IMG/VR virus record: IMGVR_UViG_3300025853_000427
Coordinates: 1-30,341 of that record
DNA from: a virus
Length of the DNA: 30,341 nt
Reading direction: 5' to 3' (one strand)
Shown here piece after piece: positions 2,925 to 26,653 of this stretch; position 1 is the first letter of the stretch; each line of letters begins with the position of its first letter. The position numbers and the translations under genes were made by a program. The notes beneath the pieces are model-generated. The model did not search any database. It saw nothing but the letters and a program-made list of their open reading frames with translations, and was not told where the DNA came from.

Positions 2925-5208
2925 CACCAGATGGTGGTGCTGAACCCGGTTGATGTTGCGGATTCTGTTGCAAGTTATTCAGTGAGCCTTCACCTAGAAC
3001 ATAATCAAGTGCAGCAGAGTTACCACTGACGTTCACATCGATGTTCACTGTCGCATTCATTGTGCGATTTCTGAAGGTGTTAGCGACTGTTGATTGAATG
3101 GTACGCATCTTCTGGTCAATGTCAACGAAGTCAGCCTGTAATGTATCAACCTCTTCCAATGCTTGCTCAGAGATGAGACTCTCAATCGGTTGAAGCGCGC
3201 CACCATCTTCACCACTCAAGAATGATGGGAAATTTGTCGGTTGTCCGAATATGTTCTGATACGGCATCGTAGGTTGTACACCACCCATGCCGGGCAAGCC
3301 GATTTGCATGCCGGGTTGAAGTGTGCCATACGGTGCGAACATGCCAAGCATCGACTGTATCTCACTTGCTGGTATGCCCATGTTAGCCAAGATACTCCAC
3401 GGACTGTCTCCGGGCTGTACGGTATACGCGCCACCTGTACCAGCAGGAGCTGGCATTGGACCCGGTGTTGATGCTCTGACTGCATCTCTAACTAGTTGTA
3501 TAATGTCATCATCTGACATGCCAAGGAATTCACCAGTCTGGAGCGCATTTTGCACAGCTTCTACCATACCGAATGACACTTGAGCACCCATCGACTTGGC
3601 GATGCGCGCAATCTCTGGTGAGATTTCATTCTCTACGACTTGCGCGAGTTCGGTGTCTTGTCCTGTTAGCAGTGCGAATTCAGATTGTAACATGCTTCTC
3701 AATTCTGAGTTGTCAATGTTGCCTAGAAGCATCTCAACGAGCCCAGTCTGTTGTGGATCACCTGCACCACGTCCGAGCAAGTCGTCTAGTGACATCAGCT
3801 TGATGTTGGCTAGTTTCTGCATATCGGCATATGACTGGCGAATCGATGCTTCAACATTTTGCCACTTGCCTTCAATATCATCAAGATAATCTAAGTATTC
3901 ATTATCTCGCATGGTCGCTGCAACATCTCGCGTCTCTGCAATCCGTGCATACAGGTTATCAAATTCTGCAATCGTTGCTCTTAGATTGTCTTCATCCAGC
4001 ACACTACCCGTTAATGACTGAACAGTCATAGCAGATAGCGTTGCCATTGACTGTTGCTCAGTCTCAATCATTGTTTTCAGCAACTCAAATCGCATCGCTG
4101 TATTTTCAAGGCGATTATTCATCATCGCGAGCTGTTCTTCTGTCATGCTGTATTGACCGTCAAGATTAGCATACTGTTGAGCCAGCAGTACAGAATAATA
4201 GTCACCCGGTTCATAAATTGTCCCAGCTGGAAGCGTCGGCAAGCCTGTTCGCTCATCGCTACCGATTTGCGTCTGTAATCGAAATGCCTCTTGTTGATAA
4301 CGTTGCTCTGCGACCGCTGTCACTTGCGCACGCATTCGTTCAGCATCCTCAATATAACCCATCGCCTCAGCCATATCGGCAGCTGCTAAGCCACCTACAA
4401 GCCCAGCATCAATTTGCTGTTCGCCTGTCGTAAAAAATAGAGCTCCGATTGCAGCGGTTAGCTCTATAGTCGACGATGTGAAGCTGGAGAAGCTGTTATA
4501 ATAGTCCTCCATGTTCGCTTTGGCTCTATTGACAGCTGTATCAGTCGCTGTGACTGCATCACCTAATCGCGCGATTGCTTCAGCACCGATGTCAAATGTC
4601 GCCATCTTGAATGCTTCTTCACGATTGAGTGCTTGTCCTGTCTCCAGCAACTGTTCCATCTCAGCTCGCACCTTAGCCGATGAGATACCGAAGGAGTCAA
4701 GACGCTCAACGGATTGATTCGCAAGCATCAATGCAAAATCGTCTATTGCTTGCCCAGCAGTCATCGTCGGACTTTTGAGCTTCACAGCCATGTCAATGAG
4801 TGATTGAACTTCTTGAGCGTTCTCAGCTAATCCCATGCGCATCAACTGATTAGCACCCGTCATCAAGTCCATCTCACTCACAACGCCGTTGGTGATTGAT
4901 TTCAGGCTGTCGAGTAGTTGATACGACTGTTCAACATCACCTGTCAACTGTTGAAATATTTTGCGCGTTGCGTTGACAGATGTCCCGACGTTGTTCAATT
5001 CATTTGCTACACTGACAAATGCCGCACCTGCTGCAACCGCCGCACCTGCCATACCTGCCATGCCCATGACTTTGGTAAGACCGCCGATACCTCTGCCTGC
5101 TTGTTGTCCAGCATTATTGAGATTACTCATATTCTGTTGTACACGGCGCAAGTCGTCACTGGCGTTGTCTTGTCCCTCTATAACGATTGCAATTGTCTCT
5201 TTTGCCAT
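2911..5208 (-). CDS. Tail tape measure protein with an embedded LysM-like domain
   Basis: This is the longest gene of the late operon (765 residues). It begins with an amphipathic region, then a glycine/alanine-rich hydrophobic stretch (about 45-70) and long helical, Gln-rich segments, as tape measure proteins do. It sets tail length during assembly and is carried inside the tail tube. At about residues 594-640 there is a LysM-like unit, YTVQPGDSPWSIL then LQPGMQIGLP, suggesting peptidoglycan contact during DNA entry. No catalytic lysozyme or peptidase motif is seen. The ATG at 5208 has AGGA seven bases upstream and follows the chaperone pair by eight bases. The size suggests a tail of roughly 110 nm by the usual residue-to-length ratio. 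Confidence 0.9.
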   Translation of the reverse strand: MAKETIAIVIEGQDNASDDLRRVQQNMSNLNNAGQQAGRGIGGLTKVMGMAGMAGAAVAAGAAFVSVANELNNVGTSVNATRKIFQQLTGDVEQSYQLLDSLKSITNGVVSEMDLMTGANQLMRMGLAENAQEVQSLIDMAVKLKSPTMTAGQAIDDFALMLANQSVERLDSFGISSAKVRAEMEQLLETGQALNREEAFKMATFDIGAEAIARLGDAVTATDTAVNRAKANMEDYYNSFSSFTSSTIELTAAIGALFFTTGEQQIDAGLVGGLAAADMAEAMGYIEDAERMRAQVTAVAEQRYQQEAFRLQTQIGSDERTGLPTLPAGTIYEPGDYYSVLLAQQYANLDGQYSMTEEQLAMMNNRLENTAMRFELLKTMIETEQQSMATLSAMTVQSLTGSVLDEDNLRATIAEFDNLYARIAETRDVAATMRDNEYLDYLDDIEGKWQNVEASIRQSYADMQKLANIKLMSLDDLLGRGAGDPQQTGLVEMLLGNIDNSELRSMLQSEFALLTGQDTELAQVVENEISPEIARIAKSMGAQVSFGMVEAVQNALQTGEFLGMSDDDIIQLVRDAVRASTPGPMPAPAGTGGAYTVQPGDSPWSILANMGIPASEIQSMLGMFAPYGTLQPGMQIGLPGMGGVQPTMPYQNIFGQPTNFPSFLSGEDGGALQPIESLISEQALEEVDTLQADFVDIDQKMRTIQSTVANTFRNRTMNATVNIDVNVSGNSAALDYVLGEGSLNNLQQNPQHQPGSAPPSGVENY

Positions 5209-18046: not shown

Positions 18047-18523
18047 TCATTGCGCCGTCACTAGTTGGTATTGCTTGATGGCATCGCGTGCTAATCTGTC
18101 CTTGTCGAACCATGTCATCCAGTAGAAGTATTCCAACCGTGCCATTGTCGTTCGGTGTACTGGTGTGAATCCATGGTATTCGTAGATTTTACAAATGTAG
18201 TTGTTGATCGTGGTACGTGACAAATCAAGCTCACGCTCCATGTCTGGTGCTGACATATACGGTGCATGAACCCAGAGACGCAGGATGCGCTGGTAACGTT
18301 CTGGCATGTCCTTCTTCAAATGCCGTGTCTTAACTTTGATGTAGCCTAGCCGATGGAATAACGTGACGCGCTTGAACGTGCCATGAGGCTCTAAGCGATC
18401 TAGCATATACATCATTGTTCCGCGATGGACGTATATGTTGTCGACAATGTCCTGATCACGCGCCAACGGATTCGTGTACAACTCACGTAATATGAGATTC
18501 CATGTCGGGTTCGATGTGTACAT
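18047..18523 (-). CDS. Winged-helix-like array protein A (paralogue family)
   Basis: The ATG at 18523 has AGGAG five to six bases upstream and gives 158 residues. Longer starts would run into the upstream gene. The protein is two related units. Unit 1 (about 8-65) has LYTNPLARDQDIVDNIY, then RVTLFHRLGYIKV. Unit 2 (about 79-148) has WVHAPYMSAPDMERELDLSR, a helix ending KIYEYHGF, then FYWMTWFDKDRLARDA. The helix-turn-helix reading of each unit is inference. It is the last and most diverged member of the five-gene set; M-T-W replaces M-G-W. I recognise no published family. Confidence 0.75.
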   Translation of the reverse strand: MYTSNPTWNLILRELYTNPLARDQDIVDNIYVHRGTMMYMLDRLEPHGTFKRVTLFHRLGYIKVKTRHLKKDMPERYQRILRLWVHAPYMSAPDMERELDLSRTTINNYICKIYEYHGFTPVHRTTMARLEYFYWMTWFDKDRLARDAIKQYQLVTAQ

Positions 18524-18545
18524 TATCGCTCCTATATCGGCTCTG

Positions 18546-19040
18546 TCATGATACAGACATCCGTTGAAGTACGTTGTATTGCATCTTCGCGTCACGTGCG
18601 AGGCGTTCGGTGTCGAACCATCCCATGTGTGCATAGAATCCGTGGCGACTACGATTGCGTGTCTCAGACATCGGCATGCCAAAATAGTTGTATGTATATT
18701 TCATGGTCATTGTCATGGTATGTGTCGTGTAGCCTGCGATTTCTGCCAAATGTCGCAACGACCCTGATGGTGCTTGTTGCATGGCACGCAATGTGCTGTT
18801 AACCATCGCAGAGCCACCCTCTGGCATGACATCTGGTAGTTCGATGTAGCCGAGCATGTGATACAACTGCACACGCGATTGTGTGTGTAGCCCTAACTGT
18901 GCAGCAGTGTATGAAACTGCCGACACTGATGTGTATAGCGTATTAGCAATGTCCACATCACGTGCCAGCGGATTCGTGTACATGTACAATAGTATCTGTA
19001 ACTGCGATGCTGTCATGCCTTGCTTGTATAGTGGTCTCAT
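18546..19040 (-). CDS. Winged-helix-like array protein B (paralogue family)
   Basis: The 164-residue protein has unit 1 (about 12-70), MYTNPLARDVDIANTLYTS then RVQLYHMLGYIELP, and unit 2 (about 83-151), APSGSLRHLAEIAGYT, TYNYFG, then FYAHMGWFDTERLARDA (135-151). The strongest matches to its neighbours are the NPLA, LGYI-LP and FY-HMGW-D--RLARDA blocks. The gene starts on an ATGA overlap with gene C and has AGGAGAG before the ATG. Function is unknown; a DNA-binding role is inferred from the repeated helix-turn-helix-like spacing. Confidence 0.8.
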   Translation of the reverse strand: MRPLYKQGMTASQLQILLYMYTNPLARDVDIANTLYTSVSAVSYTAAQLGLHTQSRVQLYHMLGYIELPDVMPEGGSAMVNSTLRAMQQAPSGSLRHLAEIAGYTTHTMTMTMKYTYNYFGMPMSETRNRSRHGFYAHMGWFDTERLARDAKMQYNVLQRMSVS

Positions 19041-20002
19041 GTTCTCTCCTGTAGTGCTTCAAATTGTGCGTGCGCATCGTCTGCCAATCGGTGCATGTCG
19101 AACCAGCCCATGTACCAGTAGAAGCCGAGGCGTTGGTACGCTTTCGGACGGAATTTTCGTGTGTACCCGAGCTTGTCATACATCCTGTAGATGCGATTGC
19201 TCATCGTCTTCTCAGGTACTCCAAAATGTGCGGCGGTGTCTTTTTGCGTTGCGCCCGGGTTGACGCGCCAATAATTCAGAATCTTCTGTGGCAGGTGCTT
19301 CGGTACATGCACATAACCCAACCGTGTCAACATCGCAATTCGTGATGATGTCGAGCCATTCTGATCCCATAGCGCGGCGTGGTATGTCATGATTGAGCAA
19401 TACGTCTGTGCTATAACCTCGCCTCGCGTCGCAAATGGATGCGTATAGATGTAATACAGCACCTGTTGACGTGCGAATGTCGATTCACGTGGAAATAGTC
19501 GAGGTGGGCGCGGTTTTTCGTTCTCACGTTGTAGCCATACCGCATCACGGTTCATCTTCGCACGGTTCAACCATCCCATGTACGCATAGAACTCAATGCG
19601 TCGGTGGTCGCCTCGCGTTTTCGGGTCTGGTACAAATCCATTGGCAACTGCGAGCTCATTCACCAGCCGTGACACGTAATCACGTACAATGCCGAGGTCG
19701 TCTGCGATTTCCTGCAGTGATGCGCTGGGATTGTATGCGAGGTAGTGCAACACCCGCATAATAGTCGGGTGCGCATTAACTGAATCTAGCGGGTTGATGC
19801 TGATGTAGTCGAGTGCATCCAGCAATTGCAACCGTGTCGGATTGATGATGTCTGGCAACATTGCCTCTAACAGCAACTCATAGCCAAGGCGCGTCGTGTC
19901 CACTTTGTTGATGGTCGGATTGTCGATGATGTCCAACATGGCACGGATGCCGTACTCATCCAGCTCATGGAATTTGTCACGTAACAGACTACTTGAGGAC
20001 AT
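19037..20002 (-). CDS. Winged-helix-like array protein C, a double-length fusion
   Basis: At 321 residues this is twice the length of the other members and contains two complete copies in tandem. Copy 1 has a diverged unit 1 (18-71) and a unit 2 (81-154) with NPSASLQEIADDLGI and FYAYMGWLNRAKMNRDA. Copy 2 has unit 1 (176-234), YIYTHPFATRGEVIAQTY and LGYVHVP, and unit 2 (240-310), RVNPGATQKDTAAHFGV and FYWYMGWFDMHRLADDA. The copies differ strongly, so the fusion is old. A basic linker (155-172, KPRPPRLFPR) joins them. AAGGA lies nine bases before the ATG at 20002. It overlaps the end of gene D by 14 bases. Confidence 0.8.
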   Translation of the reverse strand: MSSSSLLRDKFHELDEYGIRAMLDIIDNPTINKVDTTRLGYELLLEAMLPDIINPTRLQLLDALDYISINPLDSVNAHPTIMRVLHYLAYNPSASLQEIADDLGIVRDYVSRLVNELAVANGFVPDPKTRGDHRRIEFYAYMGWLNRAKMNRDAVWLQRENEKPRPPRLFPRESTFARQQVLYYIYTHPFATRGEVIAQTYCSIMTYHAALWDQNGSTSSRIAMLTRLGYVHVPKHLPQKILNYWRVNPGATQKDTAAHFGVPEKTMSNRIYRMYDKLGYTRKFRPKAYQRLGFYWYMGWFDMHRLADDAHAQFEALQERT

Positions 20003-20492
20003 GTGCCACTTCCTTCAGCATCTCATCAGCATCACGCGCCATGCGTTCGGTGTCTAGCCATCCCATGTGTGCATAGAAGTTGACACGTGACATCTTGCGA
20101 TTGCTTGGCATGTCTGGTGCGTACATCATGTAGATTTCTACAATGCCGAGTCTGATTGAGCCTGTGCTATACAGCAAGCGTCCTGCTGTCTCATCACTCC
20201 GAGCTGTTGGATATTCATGCCAGTCACTTAAAATCGACATATGCAAGATGTTGTTCGTATCAATCCCCATCTCTGTAAATGGTGGAATGCTGATGTAGCC
20301 GAGCTTATTCAGCAACCGAACTCGGGACAGTGGTGATGTCTTCAAGACACGCTCTGCCATCGCACGGTAGCTGTTGTAGCTGAATTCAGTTGTGTCCTTC
20401 AAGTCTTCGATGCGTTCTGCTGGATTGTGTAGCAGGATGTGCAAGGCGATGATCTGCGTCGGTGTCAGTGTGTAATCAATGAAGTGATTCAT
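19989..20492 (-). CDS. Winged-helix-like array protein D (paralogue family)
   Basis: The 167-residue protein has unit 1 (about 10-70), HILLHNPAERIEDLKD then RVRLLNKLGYISIP, and unit 2 (about 84-155), DWHEYPTARSDETAGRLLYS then FYAHMGWLDTERMARDA. Its ATG overlaps the stop of gene E as TAATG. Within unit 2 the NP block is changed to YP, and the helix-turn-helix region is less regular. No catalytic motif is visible; the conserved aromatic signature is more likely structural or an interaction surface. Confidence 0.8.
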   Translation of the reverse strand: MNHFIDYTLTPTQIIALHILLHNPAERIEDLKDTTEFSYNSYRAMAERVLKTSPLSRVRLLNKLGYISIPPFTEMGIDTNNILHMSILSDWHEYPTARSDETAGRLLYSTGSIRLGIVEIYMMYAPDMPSNRKMSRVNFYAHMGWLDTERMARDADEMLKEVAHVLK

Positions 20493-20977
20493 TATGCCAC
20501 CTCTACCAGTGGGAATTGTTCCTGTGCATCACGTTGCAAGCGCGCCACATCGAACCAACCCATGTGCTCATAGAAGCCGAGACGGTAGAATTGCGCCGCA
20601 TCAACGTTATCGCCTGTAAATCCGAAGTACTCGTATGTTCTCATGATGAGCATACCCACACCTGAATAACTATAGCCTGTGTGGTAGGCTACCTCGCGCA
20701 TGGATGCCAACGGATTTGAATGCCAGACATCTAGCACCTGACGCACTGGCTTCATGTGTGAGTATGGCATTTTATCTGGCAGGTTGATGTAGCCCTTAGC
20801 CATGAAGAAGTCAGCACGTGTGGTGAGCTTACAGGCACGATTGAGCATGTCTGGCAGGCTATTGTATGAGATGCCTGCCTTTTCACCGATTGCTGGTACT
20901 GTTGCATACGGATTCATGCACATCCAGTAGATGGCATCTCGTTGCTTCCGTGTTGTTACGCCGTCATATATTGGCAT
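20492..20977 (-). CDS. Winged-helix-like array protein E (paralogue family, first gene)
   Basis: The 161-residue protein is the first transcribed member and has the best ribosome site (AAAGGAG six bases before the ATG). Unit 1 (about 8-68) reads MCMNPYATVPAIGEKAGIS, with FFMAKGYINLP at its end. Unit 2 (about 78-151) reads WHSNPLASMREVAYHTGYS, RTYEYFGF, then FYEHMGWFDVARLQRDA (135-151). The two units share the plan NP-A-x-x-x-(helix)-turn-(helix)-R...GY/GW, which points to an internal duplication. DNA binding is the likely activity. Confidence 0.8.
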   Translation of the reverse strand: MPIYDGVTTRKQRDAIYWMCMNPYATVPAIGEKAGISYNSLPDMLNRACKLTTRADFFMAKGYINLPDKMPYSHMKPVRQVLDVWHSNPLASMREVAYHTGYSYSGVGMLIMRTYEYFGFTGDNVDAAQFYRLGFYEHMGWFDVARLQRDAQEQFPLVEVA

Positions 20978-21641: not shown

Positions 21642-21670
21642 ATTATAGTTCATTGTTGTAGTAGAGTCTA
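21642..21670 (-). promoter_or_regulatory. Sigma70-like promoter for the array operon
   Basis: On the minus strand TAGACT (21670-21665), a 17-base spacer, then TATAAT (21647-21642). The -35 matches four of six consensus bases and the -10 all six. It overlaps the last codon of the helicase gene and gives an 18-base leader to the ATG at 21617. Confidence 0.6.
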
Positions 21671-22981
21671 GTGCGCAATACTAGCAAATTTGGTAGTTGT
21701 GGTGTCGAAGTATACACCGATTGCGCCTGTGCTACCGTGGCGATTCTTGGCAATGAGAATCTCACGTGCTTCTGGTGTCTTGTCGTCAGGCTTCCACAGC
21801 AACATCACACGCGCCGCTTTTTCCTCTACTGCGCTGGAGCGTTTCAGGTCTGACAGCGTCGGTCTGCCATCTGCTCCAGAGCGTCCAATCTGGTGCGTTG
21901 CCAGAATGCTGATGTTGTAATCGATGGCGACCGATTCCAGTGCCTCCATGATGGCATTGATGCGCAACCAATCCTGATCTGCGTGAACATCAGTATCCAA
22001 CTGCAGAACACCATCAAGAATCAGCAGGTCGAGCCCGTTGCGTTCGATTTCCTGTTCAACTAGTGATGGCAAGTCCTCAACACTCAAGCGTGTACTGCGC
22101 TTCATGCGTAGTGGTAGAGATTCCAGCCGAGCAACAGCGTTCATGTACTTGACATAATCCTGCTGTGTGAATGCGCCACGCTCAATGACACGTACTGGAA
22201 TGTCTGTCTCCATTGACATAATACGGTTGTTCATTGCCAATTGTGTCATCTCACCACTGAACAGCATCACCTTCGCACCTTGTACCGTTGCACGGTTGAT
22301 ACCTGCCTTCGCTGCATTAATCGCCATCGTGAATGCACATGCGGACTTGCCAGCACCTGTATAGCCTGCCAGAATGTTGACATCACCCGGACGCAACCCG
22401 TCCAGTAGTCGGTCAACATCATGTAAGCCTGTACGAATGCCGAGCGTGTACTGCTTATTCTGCTCATACAGCGTGGCACGGTCTGCAATGATGTCGTATG
22501 TCGTGGATAGCGATTCAGAGAACGATATAACGTGGTCTTCGATGTCTGGTGCTTGTAGTTGCTTCAAGTCGGACATCATTGTCTTGATGATGTCATTAAT
22601 CGGCTTATCGGCATCAAGCATGTCATCGATGCTGGCGGTATATTCATGTAGTTTACGACGCACAGCAATGCGCTTCACCATATGCGCATAGACTTCGGTA
22701 TATGTCGAACTCTCCAGACTGTTCATCAATTGTGTCAGGTAAGCACGTCCACCGATGAGCTCCAGTTGCTTGGATGTGTTCAGTGCATCAGCAATCATCG
22801 TGGCATCAATACTGCCATACTGACTGAAGACATTCTGTGCGCTGTTGTAGATGATGCGGTGACGATCTAGGAACAGGTCGGACGCATCAATGATGCGCTT
22901 CACTGTCAGGTACTGCCCAGTTAGAACAGCACCGAGGACTGCCTTCTCAGATTCTTCACTATATAACGTCGTAATATCCAT
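21668..22981 (-). CDS. dnaB: Replicative DNA helicase, DnaB-like
   Basis: The 437-residue protein has the DnaB layout: an N-terminal helical domain (1-110, SEESEKAVLGAVL), a linker, and a RecA-fold ATPase from about 180. Walker A is AGYTGAGKS (205-213), Walker B LLILDGV (319-325), followed by HQIGRS, LSDLKRSSAVEEKA and the arginine-finger region KNRHGSTG (412-419). It unwinds DNA ahead of the fork and should be loaded by the initiator encoded just upstream, with which it overlaps by 23 bases. The ATG at 22981 is preferred over the GTG at 22984 because GAGGAG is seven bases away. No phage DNA polymerase is seen here, so host polymerase may be used. Confidence 0.93.
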   Translation of the reverse strand: MDITTLYSEESEKAVLGAVLTGQYLTVKRIIDASDLFLDRHRIIYNSAQNVFSQYGSIDATMIADALNTSKQLELIGGRAYLTQLMNSLESSTYTEVYAHMVKRIAVRRKLHEYTASIDDMLDADKPINDIIKTMMSDLKQLQAPDIEDHVISFSESLSTTYDIIADRATLYEQNKQYTLGIRTGLHDVDRLLDGLRPGDVNILAGYTGAGKSACAFTMAINAAKAGINRATVQGAKVMLFSGEMTQLAMNNRIMSMETDIPVRVIERGAFTQQDYVKYMNAVARLESLPLRMKRSTRLSVEDLPSLVEQEIERNGLDLLILDGVLQLDTDVHADQDWLRINAIMEALESVAIDYNISILATHQIGRSGADGRPTLSDLKRSSAVEEKAARVMLLWKPDDKTPEAREILIAKNRHGSTGAIGVYFDTTTTKFASIAH

Positions 22982-23834
22982 CACGTAACTCCTCTATTTT
23001 CTCCTTAATTGTGTCATCGACATACGATGGGTCGATGCGTTCATATCCTAATGCCATCTGTGCACGCATGACAAGGGTGCGTTCGTAAGTCTGTGCAGAT
23101 TGCGTCGCCTTGTTCTTCTGTGATGCGTAGAATTCGCCATAATATTGTGCGAGCTTGTCATCTGCCATCGGCATTGTCAGTCCAGCATATTCACGCTTCC
23201 ACCATGAGGCGAACTTGTCCAGATGCGCTGGTGTCAGTTCAGTGCCATGTAGCGAATGGATTTCTTGCAAGTTCTTCTTAGCCTTGGCGATACGTCCACC
23301 AGCACGCTTGGCGATTCGTTCAGCATCCTGATTGAAGATGTTGACAGCTAACCAGTCGAATGCCTCATCACGTTTCCGAGGTCGCACGTCGCCGTTAGGC
23401 GCATCTACGGTTAAACTACGGTTACCTACGGTTAGGGTGTCGGTAGCGACACTAGTGGAGGTGTCGGTAGCGACACTAGTGGAGGTGTCGGTAGCGACAC
23501 TAGTGTCTTTTGCATCACTGGTGTCGGTAGTGAATTCTGAATTATCCATGCCTTGTTCAGCACGCCACTTCAGCATGTAGAAGCGATTCGTGTTGCCATT
23601 CTGTGTCTCAATGCCTGCGTAATGGCGAATACCAATGTGTCCATTGTCAACAAGCCGATTAATTGCCTTGATTGCATTGCGTCGTGATATGTTGCACTTC
23701 TCAGATAGTTTGCGATACGATGGGAAGCACGCACCAACCTCATCAGCATAGTCTGCGATGGCGAGCATCATCAGACGGTCGCTCCCTGTCAGTTCGGTGT
23801 CCTCGAACACCCATGTAATGTGCTTAACGCTCAT
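22959..23834 (-). CDS. Replication initiator protein with iterons inside its gene
   Basis: The 291-residue protein has an N-terminal winged helix (about 15-70: LTGSDRLMMLAIADYADEVGACFPSYRKLSEKCNISRRNAIKAINRLVDNG) like lambda O-type and RepA-type phage initiators. A low-complexity linker (98-135) contains three copies of an 8-residue unit (STSVATDT-type) encoded by 24-bp DNA repeats. The C-terminal region (155-291) probably contacts the helicase encoded next. As in lambda O, the origin is likely to lie within the gene. CGGAG precedes the ATG at 23834. A TATAAT at 23863-23868 may serve as its promoter. Confidence 0.85.
   Translation of the reverse strand: MSVKHITWVFEDTELTGSDRLMMLAIADYADEVGACFPSYRKLSEKCNISRRNAIKAINRLVDNGHIGIRHYAGIETQNGNTNRFYMLKWRAEQGMDNSEFTTDTSDAKDTSVATDTSTSVATDTSTSVATDTLTVGNRSLTVDAPNGDVRPRKRDEAFDWLAVNIFNQDAERIAKRAGGRIAKAKKNLQEIHSLHGTELTPAHLDKFASWWKREYAGLTMPMADDKLAQYYGEFYASQKNKATQSAQTYERTLVMRAQMALGYERIDPSYVDDTIKEKIEELRDGYYDVI
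23405..23434. repeat. Three 9-bp direct repeats at helical spacing
   Basis: CTACGGTTA occurs at 23405-23413, 23416-23424 and 23426-23434, with repeat starts 11 and 10 bp apart, so all copies face the same side of the helix. They adjoin the 24-bp iterons and could be a second set of initiator or DnaA-like binding sites, or an unwinding element. Confidence 0.8.
23436..23530. repeat. Iteron array, candidate replication origin
   Basis: Three contiguous 24-bp repeats lie at 23436-23459, 23460-23483 and 23484-23507; the third differs only in its last two bases. A fourth partial copy (11 bp) begins at 23520, 1.5 units further on. Each has the hairpin core GTGTCG-GTAG-CGACAC followed by the palindrome ACTAGT. 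The array lies inside the initiator gene, as iterons do in lambda O. The repeat length keeps the reading frame. Confidence 0.75.
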
Positions 23835-23862: not shown

Positions 23863-23868
23863 ATTATA
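23863..23868 (-). promoter_or_regulatory. Possible -10 box of the initiator gene
   Basis: TATAAT on the minus strand would start transcription near 23856, about 22 bases before the ATG. No -35 consensus is present at the proper distance, so it would need an activator or be weak. It lies back to back with the stronger plus-strand promoter at 23876-23904. Confidence 0.35.
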
Positions 23869-23875
23869 CCGTACC

Positions 23876-23904
23876 TTGCACAACTAGAGGAGTTCAGCTA
23901 TAAT
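23876..23904 (+). promoter_or_regulatory. Plus-strand promoter of a small RNA unit
   Basis: TTGCAC (23876-23881), 17 bases, TATAAT (23899-23904). The -10 is perfect and the -35 matches three of six bases. It points away from the initiator gene, into a stretch with no plus-strand gene, and is followed about 30 bases later by a terminator. Confidence 0.6.
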
Positions 23905-23910
23905 CTGAGC

Positions 23911-23972
23911 TATCCAAATATGACTTTTTGTTGCTCCAAGCTGGTGACTCCTTCTAGCTCTGGGGCTTTTTT
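23911..23972 (+). ncRNA. Candidate small untranslated RNA of about 60 bases
   Basis: A promoter at 23876-23904 and an intrinsic terminator ending at 23972 bound a unit of about 62 bases in the gap between the initiator gene and a small upstream gene. It contains one short ATG frame with no ribosome binding site, so it is probably not translated. Its position next to a likely origin, opposite in direction to the replication genes, recalls the lambda OOP RNA. The RNA itself is a prediction from the flanking signals. Confidence 0.5.
23933..23972 (+). terminator. Intrinsic terminator of the small RNA unit
   Basis: GCTCCA-AGCT pairs with AGCT-(C bulge)-TGGGGC to give a 10-bp stem with one G-T pair and a 13-base loop (23943-23955), followed by TTTTTT at 23967-23972. 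The T-tract is present only on the plus strand. Confidence 0.75.
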
Positions 23973-24022
23973 CTTGTTAAGCTCCTGACAACGATTCTAC
24001 ATCACCATCAGGAATAGTTCAA

Positions 24023-24223
24023 TTATGATTCTGCTAGTGCGTCATCCAGTTCATCGCGTCGCACGCACAGGTCGATGATCTCATCATACAGCGCATCAAT
24101 CATCAACTCGCATTCTCGAACAGAGAAGCCGAGCTTGGCGCGAATCGTCCAGCGTGTAATGTTGTCCTCTGTCTTCTCAATCGCTTGCTTAATTGCCTCT
24201 AAATCGTCCCAGAATGGTGTCAT
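24023..24223 (-). CDS. Small protein with possible helix-turn-helix, unknown
   Basis: This 66-residue acidic protein has a segment, ITRWTIRAKLGFSVRECELMIDALYD (about 21-46), that could form a helix-turn-helix. It starts on an ATGA overlap with the upstream gene, with AGGAG nine bases before the ATG, so the two are co-translated. It lies two genes before the initiator. No family is recognised; a regulatory or replication accessory role is possible. Confidence 0.55.
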   Translation of the reverse strand: MTPFWDDLEAIKQAIEKTEDNITRWTIRAKLGFSVRECELMIDALYDEIIDLCVRRDELDDALAES

Positions 24224-24537
24224 AAGCCACGCTCCTTCAGTCCTTGCATATTCGGTGAGGCATTGATGCCGTACTGCCGTCCATCGGCTGTCATGTCATC
24301 GTGCTCAATCACGACATCGTACTGGATGAGTGCTGTCATCGCGTCCAGTGTTCGCTGTCCATCCAACCCAGTGCCTTCAATCATCTGCTTCGGTGTCAGG
24401 CGTGCCAGATACCCATCACCAGAGAATGCCTGCCGTGCGATGTACAAGTACAGCTTCACCTCATCACCTGTCAAAAACTGCGACACCTCATCAATGAAGT
24501 GTTGCAGCACGTCGCCTAGATTTACTGTTGATTTCAT
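24220..24537 (-). CDS. Winged-helix-like protein, possible replication accessory
   Basis: The 105-residue protein contains FLTGDEVKLYLYIARQAFSG then RLTPKQMIEGTGLDGQRTLDAMTALIQYDVVIEHDD (about 21-80), the pattern of winged-helix domains in phage replication proteins: opening helix, recognition helix after LTPKQMIEGTGL, and a wing strand. The C-terminus is short. AGGA precedes the ATG. It lies upstream of the initiator gene in the same direction, so a role in replication or its control fits, but the partner is unknown. Confidence 0.6.
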   Translation of the reverse strand: MKSTVNLGDVLQHFIDEVSQFLTGDEVKLYLYIARQAFSGDGYLARLTPKQMIEGTGLDGQRTLDAMTALIQYDVVIEHDDMTADGRQYGINASPNMQGLKERGL

Positions 24538-24567
24538 GTCATTCCTGCCTGTTCATTTGCGTCACTG

Positions 24568-24579
24568 TATTGTACAATA
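24568..24579. repeat. Perfect 12-bp palindrome in the gap before gene 24220-24537
   Basis: TATTGTACAATA is self-complementary and lies 31 bases upstream of the ATG at 24537. TACAAT within it could be a -10 box on either strand, so it could be an operator over a weak promoter. Confidence 0.5.
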
Positions 24580-24625
24580 TTCCTGCATGATGATTATCCT
24601 TTTCATTACATCCTTTCGTAAGCAC

Positions 24626-24651
24626 AAGCCCTGCCACCCGGTGGGGTTTTT
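24626..24651 (+). terminator. Intrinsic terminator, plus-strand direction, at the end of dcd
   Basis: AAGCCCTGCC pairs with GGTGGGGTTT around the loop ACCC, a 10-bp stem with three G-T pairs, running into TTTTT (24647-24651). The T-tract favours the plus strand, although the gene ending here (dcd) is on the minus strand, so it may guard against antisense read-through or end a second small RNA. Confidence 0.65.
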
Positions 24652-24653
24652 GC

Positions 24654-25205
24654 TTATAGACGTGGCAACGTCACACCTGTCTGTTGCTGGTACTTGCCTT
24701 GCTTGTCGCCATACGATTGCACGCACATCTCATCACCTTCAAAGAACAGCACCTGTGCCAGTCCCTCGTTGGCGTACACCTTCGCAGGCAATGGCGTGGT
24801 GTTGCTAATCTCCAGCGTCACATAGCCCTCCCATTCGGGCTCGAACGGTGTCACATTCACAATCAGTCCACAGCGCGCATACGTCGACTTGCCTACGCAG
24901 ATCGTGAGCACATCGCGTGGTATGCGGAAGTATTCCACAGAGCGTGCCAGTGCGAATGAGTTCGGTGGGATGATGCACACATCGCCCTTGAAGTCGACAA
25001 ATGAATCATCTGTGAACGCCTTCGGGTCGACAATCGCATTGTGGACGTTGGTGAAAATCTTGAACTCATCAGCAACGCGCAAATCATAGCCATACGACGA
25101 CACGCCGTAGCTAATGGCACCATCGCGCACCTGCTTATTAACGAATGGCTCAATCATGCCATTTCGTGCCATTTCGGCTATCCAGTGGTCTGGCTTCAGT
25201 CCCAT
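24654..25205 (-). CDS. dcd: dCTP deaminase
   Basis: The 183-residue protein matches dCTP deaminase closely: [20 protein letters not shown] (31-50), [20 protein letters not shown] (77-96), VGKSTYAR (104-111), [16 protein letters not shown] (122-137, with catalytic Glu132) and the nucleotide-closing C-terminus [13 protein letters not shown]. It converts dCTP to dUTP, feeding dTTP synthesis and raising the dTTP supply for phage replication. It is the first gene of the left-going arm, with AGAGG seven bases before the ATG and a promoter about 107 bases upstream. A hairpin in its leader may attenuate expression. Confidence 0.95.
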
Positions 25206-25423: not shown

Positions 25424-26653
25424 ATGCCACAAACATACGAACAACTCATTGCAGAACTGGAACGCGACGAAGCACAAGCACGTAAGAACGGAATCAAACG
25501 AATCTGCGCTGGCTACTACCTCATTTTGGGCGCAGACGGTGTCCTCTACCAAGTAGAACGCGGTGACCGTCGCGAAATGGAAGGAGCTGACCGTAAGATG
25601 TGGTTCGTTTCTACCGATGAAGACGGTGTCGTTAGCGAATGGATGACCTTGACGGAAGCTAAATGGGCATTGGCTCAACTCCCTGCTCCTGAGGCAGAGG
25701 TTGAGGAAGTGGAAGCGGAAGAGGAAGAGGAGACCCCAGCGGTCTCCGCTCCTGAGACAAAAGTTGGCGAAAACCTCTACCAGATTGAGGCAACAGTGGA
25801 AGCGGTCTTCGCTGACATGTACAATGAGGATTTGGTCTACATCCGTGTGACCCGTGACAGCGCACCGAAACGGGGAAGCAAGTTGAAATTCACCCGCTGG
25901 ACATTCCGCATAGATGTCGGAACCAACCCATACCAGATTGGCGACCGTGTACGGTTGACAATTCACATCAACCCCACCACAGGGCTACACACCACACGTC
26001 ATCATGAGCTAATCATCGACACCGACGATGACGCGCCATGGCAGACAATCTACACTGGTCCGTACACGATCCACACCGACACCGACAGCATGACATTCGA
26101 GTGGCGTTCAGAAGCAGAAGAGATGGCGGACCTGTTGACAGCAAATGGTGCGCGCATCACACTGGACTGGAACTACCGACCGATTACCATCGGTGAAATC
26201 GTGGGCATCAACGTGAAGAGCTACACACCATCACCACGCTGGGCAGTCATTGGTGTCATGCGCAATCGGCTCGGACTGATTGTGTACCTGTTGCAAAATG
26301 AGGACGGCGTGACACAGCAATATTACGGTCTGTCCATCCTGCGACTGCAACCGAACACCTACCACGTGCCAGTTGTCGACATCCTGACAGTGGACATCGC
26401 CATCGCTCACCTCGCTGAGTACATGGTGAACATGCACAACATGCACCCACAGATGTGCAATGCCATGCACGATGACCTCATGAGTGACATGCTGGATGAC
26501 TTGCTGGACGCGAAGTGGCGCGAAGTCACCAAGCGCATGCACGCCACACACGCGGATGACGCGCCTGAACGGTTGGAGATGATGTTCGAGTATGAGGCGT
26601 TCGCTGAATGGGTATCTGCTCGGAAGATGGCGCTGGAATACACGACAGCGTAG
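25424..26653 (+). CDS. Unknown early protein with acidic linker
   Basis: The 409-residue protein is the first gene of the right-going arm and has a strong start (GAGGAG seven bases upstream). Residues 1-85 form one domain (ICAGYYLILGADGVLYQVERGDRR then MWFVSTDEDGVV). A Glu/Pro-rich linker spans about 86-112. The remainder is beta-rich (IYTGPYTIHTDTDSMTFEW, ITIGEIVGINVKSYTPSPRWAVIGVMRNR) and ends in a helical, His/Met-rich part (MVNMHNMHPQMCNAMHDD). I recognise no family. Its place as the leading early gene would suit a host-takeover protein. A hairpin follows its stop. Confidence 0.8.
   Translation: MPQTYEQLIAELERDEAQARKNGIKRICAGYYLILGADGVLYQVERGDRREMEGADRKMWFVSTDEDGVVSEWMTLTEAKWALAQLPAPEAEVEEVEAEEEEETPAVSAPETKVGENLYQIEATVEAVFADMYNEDLVYIRVTRDSAPKRGSKLKFTRWTFRIDVGTNPYQIGDRVRLTIHINPTTGLHTTRHHELIIDTDDDAPWQTIYTGPYTIHTDTDSMTFEWRSEAEEMADLLTANGARITLDWNYRPITIGEIVGINVKSYTPSPRWAVIGVMRNRLGLIVYLLQNEDGVTQQYYGLSILRLQPNTYHVPVVDILTVDIAIAHLAEYMVNMHNMHPQMCNAMHDDLMSDMLDDLLDAKWREVTKRMHATHADDAPERLEMMFEYEAFAEWVSARKMALEYTTA

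Follow-up and report, generated by a model that had tools for sequence, protein, structure and literature searches.

A predicted antisense promoter-terminator unit, kept in one relative, lies upstream of a phage replication initiator gene in a layout like that of lambda oop

Results

Layout of the replication module

The window analysed here is the whole 30,341-bp stretch of viral DNA (record G000), in which the replication genes are carried on the minus strand (Table 1). Reading leftward, the dcd-p105-p66 operon is followed by an O-like initiator and a DnaB-type helicase. The p66 protein has no match in Pfam or PHROGs. The p105 protein (105 aa) resembles O-like initiators in their winged-helix part only (Phage_rep_O, below the cut-off); it adjoins the full initiator and is a possible competitor or regulator at the iterons. 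These iterons lie 301-398 nt into the initiator gene, and those of lambda 348-432 nt into O; judged from this placement, the origin of replication, like that of lambda, probably falls within the initiator gene. The stretch from p66 to the initiator gave no leftward terminator, so that read-through transcription would cross the gap that separates the two genes. Both neighbours of this gap (22959-23834 and 24023-24223) are minus-strand genes and the plus-strand genes start at 25424, in agreement with the original prediction, which had described a gap without a plus-strand gene, read against the direction of all nearby genes. The gap also contains a 29-bp non-coding block with CCTGA/TCAGG ends, which occurs once in the window. 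Further along the minus strand, positions 18047-20977 hold a row of paralogous HTH-like proteins with a MGWFDTERLARDA-type ending; the one tested (20492-20977) has no Pfam or PHROGs match.

Table 1. Features in and around the p66-initiator gap. Promoters, hairpins and the RNA are predicted.
Feature	Position	Strand	Remarks
DnaB-type replicative helicase	21668-22984	-	Ribosome-binding site ranks first in the window among predicted partners of the unit-1 loop
O-like replication initiator, HTH_36 winged helix	22959-23834	-	Domain match
Iterons, 3-4 copies, 24-bp GGTGTCGGTAGCGACACTAGTGGA, fourth partial	23436-23533		Inside initiator gene
-10 of leftward initiator-gene promoter, TATAAT	23863-23868	-	Back to back with unit 1; TACAAT in relative; no recognisable -35
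Unit-1 -35, TTGCAC	23876-23881	+	3/6 of consensus
AGGAGT box inside unit-1 spacer	23888-23893		Candidate regulator site
Unit-1 -10, TATAAT	23899-23904	+	6/6 of consensus; 6/6 identical in relative
Predicted small non-coding RNA, unit 1	23911-23972	+	Start inferred 7 nt past -10; end is the T-run
Unit-1 terminator hairpin, GCUCCAAGCUGG-UGACUCCUU-CUAGCUcUGGGGC	23933-23966	+	12 pairs, one-base bulge, 9-nt loop
Unit-1 hairpin loop, UGACUCCUU, 9 nt	23945-23953	+	Anti-Shine-Dalgarno CUCCUU; relative's loop CUACCUCCU
Unit-1 terminator T6 tail	23967-23972	+	T8 in relative
29-bp non-coding block, CCTGACAACGATTCTAC..CA.CATCAGG	23984-24012		Between unit-1 terminator and p66; 26/29 identical in relative
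p66, conserved 66-aa ORF	24023-24223	-	Upstream of unit-1 gap; conserved in relative
p105, second short O-like winged-helix protein	24220-24537	-	
Unit 2, second antisense unit	24573-24652	+	In p105-dcd gap (24538-24653); conserved in relative
Unit-2 -10, TACAAT	24573-24578	+	
Unit-2 hairpin, GCCCUGCCACCCGGUGGGGU	24628-24647	+	Followed by U-run
dcd, dCTP deaminase	24654-25205	-	

Promoter, terminator and predicted RNA of unit 1

The TATAAT promoter with 17-base spacing that had been proposed for this gap is present as TTGCAC-17-TATAAT at 23876-23904 of the plus strand. Its -35 element is weak (TTGCAC, 3/6 of consensus). The promoter scan also gave another register, TGCACA with a 16 bp spacer, at 10/12 matches. 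For the terminator, the six predicted Ts are found, and the stem, proposed to have 10 bp, actually has 12 pairs with one bulge. The same stem-loop and its tail can be written as GCTCCAAGCTGG-TGACTCCTT-CTAGCTcTGGGGC followed by TTTTTT (23933-23972), the bulged base being C. A simple terminator scanner with a loop limit of 8 passes over this hairpin, whose loop has 9. The hairpin alone has a dG of -15.4, and the predicted 66-nt transcript reaches -17.2 kcal/mol against -10.4 +/- 2.4 in shuffles (z -2.9). In addition, the hairpin is bordered by U-rich stretches, like those of Hfq-type RNAs. A small peptide was also considered, and its 22-codon ATG frame at 23920 was rejected: it crosses the terminator and lacks a counterpart in the related phage described below. 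No plus-strand start codon within the RNA is common to both phages. Unit 1 is predicted to be a short antisense unit giving rise to a non-coding RNA of some 60-75 nt, and we consider it highly probable that this short RNA is genuinely transcribed.

A unit was defined as a promoter with at least 9/12 matches and at least 5/6 in the -10 element, with a hairpin of -11 kcal/mol or lower plus a T-run coming 10-70 nt after it. Three units of this kind lie in the window, unit 1 among them; the same definition applied to 60 dinucleotide-shuffled genomes returned 4 units in total, a mean of 0.07 per genome. The close promoter-terminator pair that first drew attention to the locus is therefore commoner than chance.

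Other promoter-terminator pairs

Unit 2, in the p105-dcd gap, is likewise directed against the operon. In the relative it consists of a TATAAT with extended TG and a hairpin GACCUCGUC-ACAC-GGCGGGGUU, and a TAYAAT stands 28-49 nt ahead of the hairpin in both gaps of both phages. On the minus strand, the dcd-operon leader (25347-25230) carries a strong leftward promoter, TTGATG-17-TATAAT with an extended -10, and about 70 nt past it a hairpin with a T-run (25249-25230), a possible attenuator or antitermination site. A third promoter-terminator pair is located at 29870-29775 (minus strand), where TTGACG-17-TACAAT lies 43 nt ahead of a bidirectional hairpin that closes the rightward operon. Finally, a terminator-like hairpin at 26736-26661 (minus strand), in the gap after a 409-aa ORF and opposite the rightward genes, has a weak promoter ahead of it and mirrors the left arm's antisense units.

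Conservation in a related phage

Relatives were sought with the initiator, helicase, p105 and terminase as queries. In the viral and genome scans, only one relative spans the unit-1 gap, IMG/VR 3300038701_000746 (scan entries L082, G017 and L173/L174). It is a circular phage contig of 32.9 kb, the 124-bp overlap of its two ends containing one mismatch, and its identity to the window is 85% for the dCTP deaminase, 68% for the helicase, 68% for p105 and 65% for p66. The p66-initiator gap of the relative holds, in order, TTGTTA-16-TATAAT, GAGCT, a U-rich stretch, a GCUCC...GGGGC hairpin and T8. The -10 TATAAT (6/6), GAGCT (5/5), GGGGC (5/5) and the T-tail (6/6) are identical in both phages; of the -35 element, TTGTTA in the relative, just TTG is kept. 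The base of the hairpin, GCUCC/GGGGC, is the same, and the upper stem is changed from AGCUGG/CUAGCU to GUCUC/GAGAC, another sequence in which the pairing is kept. An upper stem that is rebuilt but still paired is what would be expected of a terminator under plus-strand selection. This conservation, in a comparison of two genomes, is the strongest sequence evidence for unit 1, and it answers the check proposed with the original prediction, since promoter and hairpin are both kept, in one relative only.

The initiator of the relative belongs to another O-like subfamily (Phage_rep_O/phrog_678, as opposed to HTH_36 in the window). Since the neighbouring initiators differ in subfamily, unit 1 was kept through a gene swap and belongs to the gap, not to the initiator. 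Coding in the relative is essentially all on the minus strand; consequently, its plus-strand promoter and terminator serve no gene. The initiator gene of the relative has its own internal iteron-like repeats (GGTTAAATTCTTTTACTAGTA) in a similar place (L173, 17779-17862, and L174, 4-45). T-arm-like segments (GGTTCGAT/GAATCGAACC) at about 4830-4872 and 5670-5711 of L174 suggest tRNA genes; ARAGORN found none in the window.

The viral and genome scans gave no further relative with unit 1, so that two genomes carry it. Terminase relatives that are 98-100% identical (L002-L007) stop short of the region, and those that are 63% identical (L008-L012) have another replication module or no match. A blastn search against named phages gave no match. 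Two pattern scans were also run: CCTGACAACGATTCTAC gave, besides the relative, one chance match within a coding gene (L158), and GGAGTN(2-4)GCTATAATNNGAGCT gave three chance matches within phage structural genes (L160-L162).

Discussion

Proposed counter-transcription in cis and its alternatives

In lambda, pO opposes pR: pO activity lowers pR transcription and the loss of pO impairs replication, and raised levels of OOP RNA have no such effect (PMC3985674). OOP is antisense to cII through a 52-nt overlap (PMC5869508). This overlap has no counterpart at unit 1, and together with the precedent of lambda pO this favours a role in cis. By this analogy, the main function of unit 1 may be that of a cis-acting counter-transcription element like lambda pO-oop, a reading to which we give a probability of about one half. 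Once RNA polymerase is loaded at the plus promoter, it would start near 23911, run against the leftward transcription coming from the dcd-p105-p66 operon and stop after about 60 nt. In the leader immediately preceding the initiator, the opposing transcription would interfere with read-through mRNA, with which the unit-1 RNA could also pair; the initiator itself would be served by the overlapping back-to-back leftward promoter. As a result, transcription across the initiator, the iteron origin and the helicase gene would be both damped and timed. The second conserved antisense unit in the same operon supports this model. On the other hand, interference with read-through would appear to leave the initiator's own apparent promoter untouched. 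Of the roles suggested earlier, regulation of the initiator region is thus reasonable, given the lambda-like layout and the conserved unit.

A second possibility, which we hold only tentatively, is that unit 1 makes a trans-acting sRNA whose loop blocks ribosome binding on phage mRNAs, above all that of the DnaB helicase, in the manner of alpha-r14/NfeR1. An anti-Shine-Dalgarno motif lies in a hairpin loop of each of the four RNAs (both units, both phages), the loops being UGACUCCUU, CUACCUCCU, UUAUCCUUU and CUCCUCA, with shuffle frequencies of 0.06, 0.02, 0.02 and 0.09, each of modest significance; terminators, however, often have pyrimidine-rich loops, and the idea of the motif arose after the loops had been seen. 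The helicase start region comes first of the 43 partners predicted in the window for the unit-1 loop (-16.4 kcal/mol), with p66 second, whereas in the relative the helicase ranks 8/49 and structural genes rank higher. The U-rich stretches beside the hairpin are in the style of Hfq-type RNAs, and in NfeR1, anti-Shine-Dalgarno motifs in hairpins with varying stems silence their targets (PMC10746234). A combined reading is somewhat more doubtful: units 1 and 2 would form a pair of antisense RNAs in the replication operon, arisen independently of OOP, which act both in cis, opposing early transcription into the origin and initiator, and in trans, through anti-Shine-Dalgarno loops that mimic the rRNA tail and throttle translation of the helicase and other phage genes.

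It is unlikely that both plus-strand hairpins are mere terminators insulating against stray antisense transcription, the plus promoter being a by-product of the conservation of the leftward initiator promoter. Both antisense terminators do lie in long operon gaps, and the leftward -10 and the ACTCCT box, which overlap or adjoin the plus promoter, are likewise conserved; however, the plus-strand TATAAT and GAGCT fall outside the leftward -10 and are identical all the same, the TAYAAT recurs ahead of the hairpin in both gaps of both phages, and the relative has no plus-strand gene to produce stray transcription. Slightly less probable still is promoter competition, in which the overlapping leftward initiator promoter would be blocked by polymerase bound to the plus promoter or by a regulator on the AGGAGT box, and the RNA would be waste. 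The two promoters stand back to back with 8 bp between the unit-1 -35 and the leftward -10, and in each phage ACTCCT stands exactly 19 bp away from the leftward -10, with no second such place in either genome, but competition leaves unexplained why a hairpin with compensated pairing and a T-tail, both conserved, follow so closely. Replication priming, the other role first suggested, is very improbable: although unit 1 adjoins an origin of the iteron type and faces outward, as a primer for the departing fork would, its RNA would run away from the iterons and stop at a strong terminator, and for lambda OOP the primer proposal has been abandoned (PMC3985674, PMC12197685).

Comparison with known systems

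Like lambda pO-oop-tO, unit 1 is a short antisense promoter-terminator unit (under about 100 bp) set against the replication operon, immediately ahead of an O-like initiator gene carrying internal iterons, and it would be transcribed away from the origin. The original likening to OOP RNA therefore holds for the layout, which is conserved in the relative; the antisense role towards cII does not carry over, as unit 1 does not overlap the upstream coding region and has no cII-like neighbour. In fact, about 50 nt separate the end of the unit-1 terminator (23972) from the p66 stop codon (24023-24025), and the spacing in the relative is similar. In lambda, decay of the mRNA that OOP overlaps depends on RNase III. 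The two systems also differ in other respects: the initiator is followed by a DnaB helicase here and by a helicase loader in lambda, the unit-1 promoter does not lie at the initiator start but about 65 bp ahead of it, and the second unit and the anti-Shine-Dalgarno loops have no lambda counterpart. Rfam gave no match at the gathering score and chance-level matches at E 10, from a library in which the presence of an OOP model is unconfirmed.

We surveyed 12 other phages that have O-like initiators or DnaB modules for antisense units upstream of the initiator, with lambda as the positive control. The survey recovers lambda pO-oop-tO and finds a comparable unit in 0/12 of the others; in two (L186, L187) there is a weak antisense hairpin that lacks a promoter, and ten have nothing. 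Judged from these sequences, the arrangement looks like an independent parallel to lambda oop, not a general feature. If this is true, an oop-like antisense element beside the origin would be no lambdoid peculiarity, having been reached separately by an unrelated phage lineage, and it would have been retained as an independent module while the initiator protein was exchanged. Comparison would then offer a test of what lambda pO does, its role as a promoter being clearer than its role as an RNA, and antisense units of phage early operons could be found from sequence as promoter-terminator pairs on the gene-less strand.

Other systems resemble unit 1 in part. In lambda 6S (pR' to tR') and other leaders with promoter-proximal terminators, the terminator stands ahead of same-strand genes that are reached by antitermination. 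Unit 1 is similar in that the promoter is followed at once by a terminator, and differs in that no plus-strand gene occurs until 25424. NfeR1, which is host-encoded, has three hairpins with the nonamer CCUCCUCCC (PMC10746234). As in rhizobial alpha-r14/NfeR1, an anti-Shine-Dalgarno motif is kept in hairpin loops here while the stems change in sequence; unlike in NfeR1, the nonamer CCUCCUCCC is absent, and the motif is shorter, varies and lies within a phage replication module. PreS is an Hfq-dependent phage sRNA that targets host dnaN (PMC12197685), and like PreS and other trans-acting phage sRNAs, the predicted unit-1 transcript is a small RNA of the early region, possibly tuning replication.
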